From an uncultured Mycoplasma sp. (GTDB taxonomy: Bacteria; Bacillota_I; Bacilli_A; Mycoplasmatales; Mycoplasmoidaceae), in contig CAMWTH010000003.1 in the NCBI GenBank assembly GCA_947177125.1, positions 1-44,208 on the forward strand: a stretch of 44,208 nucleotides of DNA, given 5' to 3'. Below, in pieces: positions 22,343 through 44,073 of the stretch; positions within the stretch are counted from its first letter, which is position 1, and every line of letters begins with the position of its first letter. Below the pieces are notes generated by a model. The model saw only the letters and a list, made by a program, of their open reading frames with translations, searched no databases and was not told the origin of the DNA. Position numbers and translations under genes: made by a program.

Positions 22343-25003
22343 ATGATAATTAGAAATAAAGTTAAAAAGTTGATATCTATTGGTGTAGTATCATCTGTTC
22401 TTGCAACATCAGGTGGAGCAGTTTTAAGTTATTACTTAACAAGTTTAAATACTGTTTATAATAGCAATGTTTCTAATGCAAAAAATGATTTTTTAAATGA
22501 CACAACAATTGATGAAAGAATTACTAATTTACAAGTTCCAACTACTTTTTATGAAATAGATGCAAATCAGTATTATAAGAATTTGAATTTGAAATCAATT
22601 TTATCTGAGTATTCAAACAAGTTAAAAAACCAATCGATCAATAGTATTATTGAAATGATTAAAGAAAGTAATTCTGATTTTAATGTTAAAAATTTTGATA
22701 AAGATATTTTATTATTTTTAAAAAATATTTATTTAAGTAGTAGTAAAAAAATTGGAATAAAAATACTAAAATCAGATTTTAATGCTGACACTAAAATTAA
22801 TTTTAATTATGAAATAGAGCTAAAAAATAATTCTAGTACTACTACTTCTTTTTCAGTAAATAATGTTAATTTGTTTATCCAAGCAAATGAAACAAAAATT
22901 TTAAAATTCTTTACAAATAGTGCTGATTATTATTTTACTGTTTCAAAAAGTTATACTGATTATTTTTTAAATTGAAACACAAGTGTTAGTTTTTCTTTTG
23001 ATGATAAAAATTATTCATTTGATAATTTCTGTTTTACTAATAACACTTATTCAATTGCAACACAAACAAAAATAGTTGGTATTGATAATAAATATAGAAA
23101 TTATTTGGATTTAGTTAATGATAAAAATAATTTTAAAAATTTATCTGAAGATTTTTTAAAAACAAATATTAAATCACATTTATCTAAAAATATGAATATG
23201 GTTTTAAATTTGTTAAGATATTTAACACCTATTATGGATGAATTTTCTAAAAATCAAACTTTATATTCACTTTTAATGAATCAAAAAAATAACATTAGTT
23301 ATATTATTTTAGAACTTTTAGAAATAAATCAAAATAATGAAGATTTTAACAGCTATTTAAAATTATTTTCAGATCTTATAGGTGGTGGTAAGTCACTGCT
23401 AGAAGTTATTGGAAACAATAACTTAGCTTTAGCAAATTTAATTGCTTTATTAATTAATGATTCAACAATTAGTGGTGAAATTATTTACACATATATAAAT
23501 AAAATTAGTATTAGTTTAACTGATGAAGAACTATTGACTCAAAAAAATGATATGAAGGGATTGATTTCTTTTTTTGTTAATTCTCAAAAAACTAATATTA
23601 ATGTAGATTTCATCAATAGATTAATTGACAATCTTTTTAACAGAAATACAACAACACTATCTTTTTTAAGTTACTTATTTGGATATGAATCAAAATCTTT
23701 AATTGATTTATTTGCAACTACTGAAGAGTCTAAATCTGTTTATCAACTATATTTTAGATTTATTAACTTAGTTGTTTCTAATCCTTCCAAATTAGTTATT
23801 ACTAATTTATTATCAAATGAAGGACGTTCTATTATTTCTGATCTATTAACTTTATCTATGGGATTTAATATTGTTCAAGGAGATACAACAAATTCATTAA
23901 TTCTTTCAATTGCTAATCAAGTAATTAGTCCAAGTAATACAAATTTAAATCCAACAAACTTAATTAATTTATTAAAAGACACAATAGTTCCATTACTTAA
24001 TTTTTTTAGTAACAAAAATAATTATTCAATTACCCAAAAATTTGAAAACTTTGCTTTTCAAGATTATAAAGTAAGTTATGATTATAGAATCCTTTTTGAA
24101 TTTAAAAATTCTTTTACTTTTAATTTAAATTCAATGCTTGAGATTTTACCTAAAACTATATCTTTAGGAAATACAAGTGTACCTAAAGAAATTTTAAACT
24201 ACGTTTTAAAACAAGATGGTGTTGCTTTAAAAGTTACAATTGGTATTAGTGATAAAATTGATTTTTTATTCTCAGGAAGTAATGAGCAAATTTATTTAAC
24301 TCCAAAGGTTTCGCCTTTGTCTGGAAAATACTATTTAGCTTATAGCATTCCATACACTATGAAAATGAAACTAAATATGCCAACAATGTTTAGTTCAATA
24401 ACATCTTTTTACAATATTTCATTACCAATATTAGGAATTGCAAGCCATCCAATAAATGATTTAATAGTTAATGTTTTAAAACAATTTTTAAGTGATTATT
24501 TATTAAGAGATTATTACTTTTACGGAACTATTCCTGCTGTTGATAATTCTTATGTTATTAGTGATTATGAGAAAAATATTTATTATGAAGGAAATTACTT
24601 TAAATGAGTTAAACCAAGTGATTCGTTTTATAATTCTTTAAAAAATAGTATATCTTCAATAAATAGCAATACCTATTCTTTAAAGTATGTTAAGTCTAAT
24701 GCTATTAATAGTCAAACAGTTTATGAAAATTTATCAGGAAAGTTACCTGTGTTTATAAACAACTTTGAAAATACTATTATTAACTCTGTTATTCAATATC
24801 AGTCTAATGTAGAACCAATCATAAATGTTACTCCTGAAGTAAATTCAAATATTCCAGTTAGTTTTATTGGTGTCCAATATGGAACTATTAGTGTTACTCT
24901 AGTTAAAATTCAAGTTTGATTTCCTTATTCGGTTGTTGATATTTCAGATCCAAGTAATGTGAAATTTAACAATTATTTTGAAGTAGAAATTAATTTATCT
25001 TAA
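22343..25003 (+). CDS. Large predicted surface protein, 886 aa, unknown function
   Basis: This protein joins ORFs 22343 and 23105 and a C-terminal part through TGA(Trp). A basic N-terminus MIIRNKVKKLI leads into one hydrophobic segment (SIGVVSSVLATSGGAVLSYYLTSL, about 12-35). There is no lipobox cysteine, so it is more likely an N-terminally anchored or secreted protein than a lipoprotein. The rest is rich in Asn, Ser, Ile, Leu and Phe and almost free of Cys. The middle (about 255-560) looks helical with runs such as LINLLKDTIVPLLNFF; the C-terminal third looks beta-rich (YYLAYSIPYTMKMKLNMP). I find no known domain. It stands alone between rnpB and its own terminator. A surface-exposed, species-specific protein is the best reading. 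Confidence 0.75.
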
Positions 25004-25182: not shown

Positions 25183-27666
25183 ATGAAATTTAGAAATTTA
25201 TTAGTATCTGAAGACAATCAACTTGTATTAAGTGATTATGGTTTAAGTGAAGGTGAGGCTGAAGTTTTAGATCTTAACAGATCTTTAACTGATGTAATTA
25301 CAGACCCTGAATTAAAATCTTTTATTATCGAAAACGCTATTGATCCACAAAAAATTTACATTTTTTGTGTTAAAGAAGACTTTGGAAATAATGACCAGTT
25401 ATTAGAAGATATTCCTAATATAAAAGAAATAGATAAAGGATTAAAAAAGAACTATAAAAAAATCCGTAATGTTTATTTCTTTGTTTATAATACTCATCTT
25501 AAAAATGATGATGCCATTAACCCTTCAATTGAAGAGCAACAACCTGTTGAAGCTGAATATCAAGAAGTTGTTGATTCTCAAGATATGCCAGTTGAAGTAG
25601 TTGTAAATGAAGAAATTCCAGGTCAAGAAGAACAAGTTGAAGTTGTAGTAGATGAAAATCTACCTTATCAAGAAGAAGAAATGGTAACAGTTTCTCAAGA
25701 AGAATTACCTTACCAAGAAGAAATAGTTGAAGCTTATAATGAAGAACCTTACCAAGAAGAGGTAGTGGTTGAAACTCCAAATGATGAATTACCTTACCAA
25801 GAAGAAATAGTTGAAGTTTATAACGAAGAATTACCTTACCAAGAAGAAGTTCAAGTTTCTAATGAAGATTTACCTTACCAAGAAGAAGTGATTGTTGAAG
25901 AACCTGAAGTATTAGTGCAAGAAGAACCTGCACAGTATGCTTACAATGAAAATAGTGTGGTTGAGTCACAAGAAGCTTTAGACAATTTAGAACATTTTGA
26001 AGAAAAACCAGAAATTGTTGTGACTGAACAACAACTTGAATTTGTTAGTGATGCTGATGAATTAGAAAAAATTGTTGATGATGGTATTGACAAATTTGAT
26101 AGTCCAGAAAGTGACAGAATAAGAGAAGACATTTTTGTAAGTAACGAAAATGTTGATGCACCTATTTCTGAAGATGTTGTTTTATTTAATGAACCAGAAA
26201 TGATTAAGGATGAAAATCTACCAATAACTGAAGTTATTTCTGATTCAGTTGAAAGTGTTGCATTAGAAAATAATTATGATCAAGAAATTCCAGTAAATGA
26301 AAATGGTCAAATTGATTATAATGATGGTCAAACAATGGTGGAAATGCCAGCTTCTTTCTTTGATGTTGAAAGAGAAGATGAAATTTCTTATGAAGACTAC
26401 AATGAATTTGTAAATGACTATGAATTAAATATTCATGCATTAAAATCAATTTATGATTTCATTTGAAGAATTTTAGTTTTAAATAACTATAATTTAAAAA
26501 TCAATGATCTTTTATACATTGCAGTTAATAACCTTGATGCTTTTTCAATTGGACAAAGTGATTTTGTAAGACAAACAGCTAATAAAGCAGAATCATTATT
26601 TGATTTGATTTTACAACTAGATATTAAGTTAGAATTCAATAACTCATTATTCTACATTTATTTAGCAGAATTCTTTAAAATTAGTGGAAACAAAATCATT
26701 GTTAATGAAAAATTCTTAGATACTATTTCAATTTGAGTTAATAATGCTTCTAAAGAAAAATTTATTAGTCAAGTTGAGCAGTTTATGAATTATAGTTCAA
26801 TTTACAATAAAAAAATTGTTTTCTCATATTTCATTGAATTAGCAAATTTTGTAAAAGGGAAATTACCTTCAATCAACTCTAACATCACATTATTAGATGT
26901 TCACAGACTATTAAATAACAAATACAACAAAATTAGAAATGAAAATGTTTTTGCCTATATGGTAAAAAGAATGAACCAAATCTTAGAAGCTAATGGTGTT
27001 GTAATTGAAATGTATTTAGTTAAAACTCCAGATAGTATGTTTGGAATTGAAGTAAATAATCCACAAGATCAAATTAGTGATAGTTGAAAATCTCAATTAG
27101 CTTTACTTTATAAAAAATTAATGGAAAACATTTTATCTTACATCCTATTAAAAGGTAATAAAGAAGTTGAAATCTTTAACTTATTCTTAGATATTAGAGA
27201 TTTAAGAATGTATCAAGATCTTGATGAAAGTAGAAATGTTTTAGCACCTGAAACAGTTAGTGCAATTAGTGGTAGAGATTCAGGTTATTTAACAATTGGT
27301 GATGAATTAGGAAGACTAGAAGCGATCGTACCTAGTCAAAGAAGTCAAGTACAATATAATTACTTAACTCCTCAAGCTTATGTTGAAAATTTAGAAAAAG
27401 GATATCCTATGGAAAGAAAATTTGGAAATAATGTTGTAAATGCTGCTGCTGATGATTTAACTTATCCACAAGAAGTTAAACTAACTAATGGTGAAATTAA
27501 CACTATTAGAGAAAACTATGCTTCAAGATTTAATGTTGCTGAATTTGAAACATCAATTTCTAGACGTATTGAAGAATATGAAAGAAAAATAAAAAATAAT
27601 ATTTCAAGAATTGAAGCTGAAAGAAAACAACTTAGAGAAAAAATGGAAGAGTTAAAAAACATTTAA
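25183..27666 (+). CDS. Acidic repeat protein, candidate cytoskeletal/attachment-organelle protein
   Basis: This 827-aa protein joins ORFs 25183, 26785 and 27121 through TGA. Residues 1-105 form a compact N-terminal domain with no motif I know. Residues about 110-400 are very acidic (Glu/Val/Asp/Gln/Pro/Tyr) and include six LPYQEE-type repeats. Residues about 420-700 are a helical domain (DYELNIHALKSIYDFIWRIL...). The end (EFETSISRRIEEYERKIKNN and onward) is a charged coiled coil. There is no signal peptide or membrane segment, so it is intracellular. Pro/Glu-rich acidic regions plus coiled coils are a hallmark of mycoplasma terminal-organelle proteins such as HMW1, HMW3 and P65, but I see no EAGR box and cannot claim orthology. 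It has a strong promoter. Confidence 0.75.
25615..25896 (+). repeat. In-frame tandem repeats coding LPYQEE units
   Basis: Five LPYQEE and one EPYQEE copies at residues 160-235 are spaced 10-15 residues apart, with a degenerate IPGQEE at 145. Each is followed by Val/Ile-rich acidic spacers such as IVEVYNE. At DNA level TTACC(A/T)TA(C/T)CAAGAAGAA recurs almost unchanged, so unequal exchange or slippage could change the copy number while keeping the frame. Confidence 0.85.
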
Positions 27667-27673
27667 TTTTCCC

Positions 27674-27805
27674 ATGAACCTTATAAATATCATGTATAGA
27701 AATTATGAGCAAGAAATAGCTGATAAAAAACAAGCTACTCGTAGAAAAAGAATTAAAAAAGAACTAAGCTTCATTAATCCTTATGTTACGAAAAAGGTGG
27801 GTTAA
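27674..27805 (+). CDS. Possible 43-aa basic peptide
   Basis: An ORF (MNLINIMYRNYEQEIADKKQ, then ATRRKRIKKELSF, ending VTKKVG) starts 7 nt after the repeat-protein gene and ends inside the following terminator hairpin. It is strongly basic and helical. No Shine-Dalgarno is visible before either ATG (27674 or 27692). It could be a real small protein co-transcribed with the upstream gene or just chance; the stop inside the stem is compatible with both. Confidence 0.35.
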   Translation: MNLINIMYRNYEQEIADKKQATRRKRIKKELSFINPYVTKKVG

Positions 27806-27817
27806 ACCCACTTTTTG
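27791..27817 (+). terminator. Terminator after the repeat-protein gene
   Basis: AAAAAG-GTGGGT-TTAA-type hairpin with ACCCAC-TTTTT; the six-pair GC-rich core is rare in this window. It ends in a T5 run. Confidence 0.8.
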
Positions 27818-27868
27818 TTTATTACTCAAAAACTTTATTTTAAAAAGTTAGGTTAATTTTAACTTGAC

Positions 27869-27891
27869 TTTTTTTTTTTTTTTTTTTTTTT
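27869..27891 (+). repeat. 23-T homopolymer tract in a promoter position
   Basis: T23 lies between TTGACT (27864-27869) and TATTAA (27894-27899), the only -35/-10-like pair before the gene at 27924. The spacer is 24 nt now and would be 17 nt with a T16 tract. The T run also follows a weak AAGTTA/TAACTT hairpin, so a second terminator is the alternative reading. Confidence 0.6.
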
Positions 27892-27923
27892 GTTATTAAA
27901 TTAATTTTTTTTATTTTTTGTTT

Positions 27924-28553
27924 ATGGAAAATTTATTTAATAAAAAAATAAAAAATAATGAATATTTTGTAAAAAAAATGGAAGAATTTATTATTTTAAT
28001 GACAGATGAACACTGAGAAAGAGATTCTGAATTGGCCGTACCAGCTTTTAAACAAGTTTATAATTTTTTTTGAGGAACAACAAAAATAGTTGAAGATGTT
28101 GCAGAAACACAAAGAAATCAAGAGATGTTTAATTTACAACATAAAGAAAAAACAGAATTATTTAAAAAAAACAAGGAAACACTAATTAATGAAATAGTTG
28201 AACGTGGAATAAATTTATTTTTTGCAAACCACAGTAAATACACTGAATCAGATGAAAAAAAACTAACTATTGTTATTAAAAAATACATTGATGAAATTGA
28301 AGAAAAATGCAAAAATTTTAGAATTATTTTATCAGAACCAAGATGAGAAAAAGAACTTATGGAAATGGAATTGGAAAATAAATCTAATAAAGTAGCACTT
28401 TTGTCAAGTCAAGCAAATTTATTAAGTGTTTTTAAAAAAATAAAAATAAAAAATGAAGAAATAGAAAAAATAGAATTAATCAAAAAAATTTCTGATATTG
28501 AAGAAGAAATTTCAGAAAAAATCGAAGACTTTATAAGTGAAGTTTTAGATTAA
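27924..28553 (+). CDS. Uncharacterised coiled-coil protein, 209 aa
   Basis: This soluble, highly charged protein (MENLFNKKIKNNEYFVKKME...) joins ORFs 28125 and 28359 to an upstream part through TGA codons. The C-terminal half is Lys/Glu/Ile-rich with heptad-like spacing (IKIKNEEIEKIELIKKISDI). There is no signal peptide or membrane segment and no motif I know. The upstream sequence is T-rich (TTTTTTATTTTTTGTTT) and lacks any Shine-Dalgarno. The gene sits behind the T23 tract and shares its terminator with the convergent rlmH gene. Confidence 0.7.
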
Positions 28554-44040: not shown

Positions 44041-44073
44041 AAATAGCAAAAGCTATTTTTTTTTTTTTTTTTT
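44041..44073 (+). terminator. Terminator with an unusually long T18 run
   Basis: The AATAGC-AAAA-GCTATT hairpin directly follows the stop codon and is followed by 18 T residues, far more than needed. Confidence 0.8.

Follow-up and report, generated by a model that had tools for sequence, protein, structure and literature searches.

Promoters in which the spacer between the -35 and -10 elements changes length are known from several mycoplasmas. Insertions and deletions in this spacer switch vlp, maa2 and vmm (PMC2268961, PMC10502178). An earlier note on the DNA studied here pointed to mycoplasma surface genes that are switched through the length of promoter homopolymers, such as the poly-A of M. 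hyorhinis vlp. In M. bovoculi, each putative promoter of vpbA-E carries a homopolymeric thymidine tract, and phase variation has been predicted (PMC3931370). For vpma of M. agalactiae, a T-tract lying directly ahead of the -10 has been shown to have no role in variation (PMC2268961), and the length of a T-tract at sabA of H. pylori gives graded promoter output (PMC4081817). The P35/mpl family of M. penetrans is switched by promoter inversion, according to a source that cites Horino 2003 (PMC10502178). A search of the open-access literature yielded no description of such poly-T promoters for Malacoplasma. Switches of this kind are already known, and the poly-T tract described here is a further candidate; the pattern across the genus is of more interest.

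The window is the whole of contig C3 (44,208 bp) from genome G000, which comprises 1.00 Mb in 81 contigs; statistics for the whole of G000 come from pattern searches and retrieved stretches. The features of the locus are collected in Table 1. The T23 run is bounded by C27868 on the left and G27892 on the right, and its first T is also the last T of TTGACT, leaving a spacer of 24 nt (27870-27893) that consists of 22 T followed by GT. The homopolymer thus lies between the -35 and -10 sequences (TTGACT-22T-GT-TATTAA), as in a spacer-switched promoter. The ATG of the 209-aa ORF follows at 27924, 32 nt after the tract. TATTAA matches TATAAT at four of six positions and has a TG one base upstream (TGT-TATTAA), the form of an extended -10. 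The earlier note's coordinates and counts for TTGACT, the 23 T, TATTAA, the ATG and the 24-nt spacing are all exact in the sequence.

Table 1. Features around the poly-T tract, in window coordinates.
Feature	Position	Strand	Basis or remarks
Intrinsic terminator of the upstream operon	27792..27816	+	11-bp stem, -13.2 kcal/mol, z -3.65
Inverted repeat (rival terminator hairpin)	27842..27873	+	14 bp: 2 G-C, 2 G-U, 10 A-U
-35 element TTGACT	27864..27869	+	Sequence; within ACTTGAC, common to the G005 lipoprotein-array promoters
T23 homopolymer, nearly the whole promoter spacer	27869..27891	+	Sequence
Putative -10 TATTAA, weak, without T at position 6	27894..27899	+	Sequence
209-aa ORF	27924..28553	+	Code 4, three TGA read as Trp; downstream of the putative promoter

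Apart from T23 and a T18 at 44056-44073, the longest run of A or T in the window is 9, and a first-order model predicts 0.0002 runs of at least 23 in the window. The T23 run is an extreme outlier, and we dismiss a chance origin. The T18 stands behind the hairpin AAAAAAATAGCaaaaGCTATTTTTTT near the contig end and probably forms the extended tail of a terminator.

We propose that a sigma-70-type promoter would drive the 209-aa gene, with the tract as its spacer. Slipped-strand mispairing would add or drop T's and thereby alter how far TTGACT stands from the TATTAA region and their relative helical phase. The gene would be transcribed with a spacer of about 17 nt (16 T) and be silent or weakly expressed with one of 24 nt (23 T). 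Taken as a whole, we regard a slippage-switched spacer promoter, on near 17 nt, as the probable nature of the T23 run. Its promoter part is likely; the switching part, namely use of TATTAA, change of the count within a population and expression set by that count, is inferred. The switched product would probably be cytosolic and hence not a known surface antigen.

For comparison we used ten Malacoplasma genomes, G000 included, in which T-runs of at least 14 number from 2 to 30 per genome. In these genomes, seven sites have TTGNC directly before a run of 12 or more T, and the reversed control has none; five are in G005, one is in G009 and one is that of the window. The other six all lie upstream of genes for exported proteins or lipoproteins, on the same strand, three of them before P35-type (MpPF1) lipoprotein genes. 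One of the G005 sites precedes a lipoprotein gene started by GTG, and at the G009 site (L127:1049-1164) a gene of the Protein M-like, immunoglobulin-binding family is found behind ATTGTC, T16 and GTAATAAGATA. We take the Pfam family MpPF1 (M. penetrans paralogue family 1) to represent the P35/mpl lipoproteins.

Similar promoters occur in arrays. In G008 (1.28 Mb, one contig), six consecutive lipoprotein genes carry ACTTGC, a T-run (19, 16, 19, 19, 19 and 19 T) and GAGTATACT, the ATG following after 41-42 nt; three lipoprotein genes of G005 carry ACTTGAC, a T-run (19, 18 and 16 T) and GATAAGGT. Four of the six G008 array genes and all three in G005 belong to MpPF1. The array loci (L112, L117 and L113 in G008, L122 in G005) hold MpPF1/P35-type and other lipoproteins. 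In both arrays and in the window the length of the spacer exceeds the T count by one. Sixteen T give 17 nt, and the calculation that the loss of seven T would bring the window to 17 nt finds its counterpart in the T16 promoters of G008 and G005. Each array contains a single promoter with T16, the others having T18 or T19, as assembled counts; this would look like one ON copy per array, with the uniform T19 in G008 unexplained. The window has the TTG(N)C-Tn-G(N)TA pattern of these arrays, and the gene behind it is not of their exported or lipoprotein kind. In most of the kin promoters the last base of the -10 is T (TATACT, TATTAT, TAAGGT).

Long T-runs in five other Malacoplasma genomes bear promoter-like flanks. 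When 42 long runs from these genomes were compared with 2691 short runs, a right flank of the form G(0-2)TA was present in 27/42 long and 192/2691 short runs, and a left edge of TTG, TTGC or TTGNC in 21/42 and 163/2691, respectively; with identical flanks merged, the p values are 2e-13 (right) and 6e-8 (left). The orientation bias of the long runs (before genes in 31/42 versus 8/42) was set aside as proof of promoters, since terminator tails are equally biased. A weight matrix built from 13 distinct kin flanks was also scored against all 803 remaining T-runs (5 T or more) in the window. The left-flank score of T23 was reached by none of these, its right-flank score by 54 and its total score by 2. 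Strong support is therefore limited to the -35 side. The promoter reading of the earlier note thus stands on its left edge, where ACTTGAC matches the lipoprotein promoters of a sister species and is the best in the window, and falls short at the weak -10.

The number of T's is less secure than the position of the tract. Among the G000 T-runs of at least 14, 17 of 27 are no more than 200 nt away from the end of a contig, indicating that long T tracts probably break this assembly, and counts above about 20 are consequently uncertain. As T23 comes from a fragmented assembly of 81 contigs, it may be an error of assembly, and the view that the promoter is drawn in the OFF state rests on an uncertain count. 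The clustering at contig ends, together with the A+T-rich genome and the placement of several G000 runs in A/T-only patches near contig ends, would also suit an inert homopolymer in an A+T-rich intergenic stretch prone to slippage, or an overcount of T's by the assembler. We consider this very improbable, given that the tract lies inside a contig of 44 kb and that its left flank agrees with the promoter motif of independently assembled species. A contig of G007 (C107, L070) follows the window with a 96% match as far as position 27841, about 28 nt short of the tract, and from about its base 2728 its sequence is unrelated; it is probably chimeric, joined near the poly-T locus. A genus-wide DNA search with the locus gave mostly low-complexity matches.

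Against a switch promoter stand the weakness of TATTAA and a stable hairpin over the -35. Kin promoters seldom have such a hairpin: in 18 of these we found one of similar strength (-11.2), and the visible inverted repeat there ends before the -35. The hairpin in the window overlaps the -35 and the first five T's, and with these T's paired it reaches -12.2 kcal/mol (z -4.6), so that its previous description as weak does not hold; without the T's of the run it has 9 bp and -6.7 kcal/mol. T23 could then be the expanded U-tail of a second intrinsic terminator behind the upstream operon, with TTGAC a coincidence. As a rival, this terminator gains from a hairpin stronger than had been claimed, and it loses from the better terminator, 25 nt upstream, that already closes the operon. 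The genus does have real hairpins with long T tails (the T18 at 44056, z -3.5; T16 in L050; T23 in L098; T17 in L100), and a near-perfect inverted repeat lies upstream of a T48 in L041. Of the 14 pairs in the stem of the window's hairpin, however, just two are G-C, and five borrow T's from the run. Elsewhere, TTGAC beside a run of at least 12 T is found only before genes for exported proteins, and the absence of such a left flank from the 803 background runs extends to the terminators among them. Nor is the presence of a hairpin decisive, since about 8% of intergenic T-runs have one of such stability. The inverted repeat was not found as a repeated element in the genome. A purely terminating T23 is in our judgment unlikely; a promoter is clearly to be preferred to it, and the two may coexist.

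The locus might also hold a promoter in which the T count acts as a rheostat, via DNA bending and polymerase contacts, or has no regulatory effect. The gradual tuning of sabA by a T-tract next to its -35 (PMC4081817) speaks for the former and the vpma tract, which gave no phase variation (PMC2268961), for the latter. Five of the six G008 array members have exactly T19, unlike randomly drifting OFF copies, and this too favours the alternative. In the window, by contrast with a rheostat, the tract lies between the hexamers and not upstream of the -35, and any insertion or deletion shifts their spacing, as in vlp, maa2 and vmm. We give this alternative little credence and retain the on/off spacer switch.

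The upstream 827-aa gene ends at 27666, before the terminator of its operon. Because this independent terminator parts the upstream operon from the tract, the 209-aa gene needs a promoter of its own. rlmH lies downstream of it on the opposite strand. By inspection, the 209-aa protein has no signal peptide or lipobox, and no credible match was found in Pfam, NCBIfam or PHROGs; for these reasons we do not place the promoter among the lipoprotein switches. The lack of an export signal, unlike the six TTGNC-T12 kin, counts against a switch promoter. The gene has no Shine-Dalgarno sequence, which about half of the window's genes carry. The locus had no match in the phage collection, and PF07668 is absent from G000. 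An AlphaFold model of the protein, made without an alignment, is mostly helical and of very low confidence (mean pLDDT 41), and its use for a fold search was dropped on account of that score.

A family-wide ortholog search (95 genomes) recovered the protein only in G003, with 76% identity over the last 45 aa, where the contig ends inside the gene and cuts the ortholog. The dN/dS of about 0.46 over this 45-aa stretch is weak evidence that points to a real protein. In G004 the 827-aa gene adjoins rlmH and the 209-aa gene is missing from between them, which marks it as an accessory gene. We predict that its product is probably cytosolic and lineage-specific. Elsewhere in the window, at 22343-25003, lies an 886-aa exported protein whose full-length match to P116, a family involved in lipid acquisition, scores below the cut-off (E 0.014).

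Orthologous tracts in G000 and its nearest relatives keep their place and differ in length between species. A gene of the choline kinase family has T26 just upstream of its start in G000 (L054, C34) and T17 in G007 (L137, C50). One lipoprotein tract reads T18/T19/T25-26/T22-23 and that of another lipoprotein T21/T17; further orthologous tracts read T18/T26/T28 and T20/T25/T27. Upstream of coaX (type III pantothenate kinase) the tract is T17 in G000 (L044, C17), T17 in G007 (L135) and T19 in G003 (L131). The choline kinase tract suggests a possible phase-variable phosphocholine pathway, and coaX is an unexpected gene for a conserved poly-T tract.

Tentatively, and with rather more doubt than for the window's promoter itself, we suggest that promoters with poly-T spacers may form a genus-wide contingency system in Malacoplasma that reaches cytosolic genes (the 209-aa protein, choline kinase and CoaX), and that the P35 (MpPF1) lipoproteins, inversion-switched in M. 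penetrans, may in sister species change state through T slippage, the single T16 copy (17-nt spacer) of each array being ON. If true, an uncharacterised mycoplasma gene would be turned on and off stochastically, and switching by poly-T promoters, known from few mycoplasmas, would be widespread in Malacoplasma. The P35 family would then provide a clear instance of a single antigen family under two switch mechanisms within one genus. These ideas are testable through T counts in existing long reads.

Among the known systems, M. arthritidis maa2, M. hyorhinis vlp (poly-A) and M. mycoides vmm (TA repeat) have the repeat between the -35 and -10, as in the window (PMC2268961, PMC10502178). These genes encode variable surface lipoproteins whose switching has been observed, whereas the window's product looks cytosolic and its switching, by the same gain or loss of repeat units, is proposed; also, the vlp tract has A on the coding strand and the window T. 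The sabA tract resembles ours in being an intergenic T-tract; its length sets promoter output, but it adjoins the -35 and acts through UP-like elements as a rheostat, not as a -35/-10 spacer. The vpbA-E genes form an array with poly-T promoters, like those of G008 and G005; they are surface-protein paralogues in another genus, whereas the window's gene is a singleton. The P35/mpl genes of Malacoplasma penetrans belong to the same genus and the same lipoprotein family as the G008 and G005 arrays, and switch by inversion and not by spacer slippage. Genome G001 (1.4 Mb), probably M. penetrans, has 53 MpPF1 hits and only two T-runs of at least 14. The window differs from the MpPF1 arrays of G008 and G005, which have T16-19 and a start codon 41-50 nt downstream, in its T23, weaker -10, overlapping hairpin and lack of a Shine-Dalgarno sequence and an export signal; it shares with them the succession of ACTTGAC or ACTTGC, a T-run and G.TA or G..TA, and the same relation of spacer to T count.
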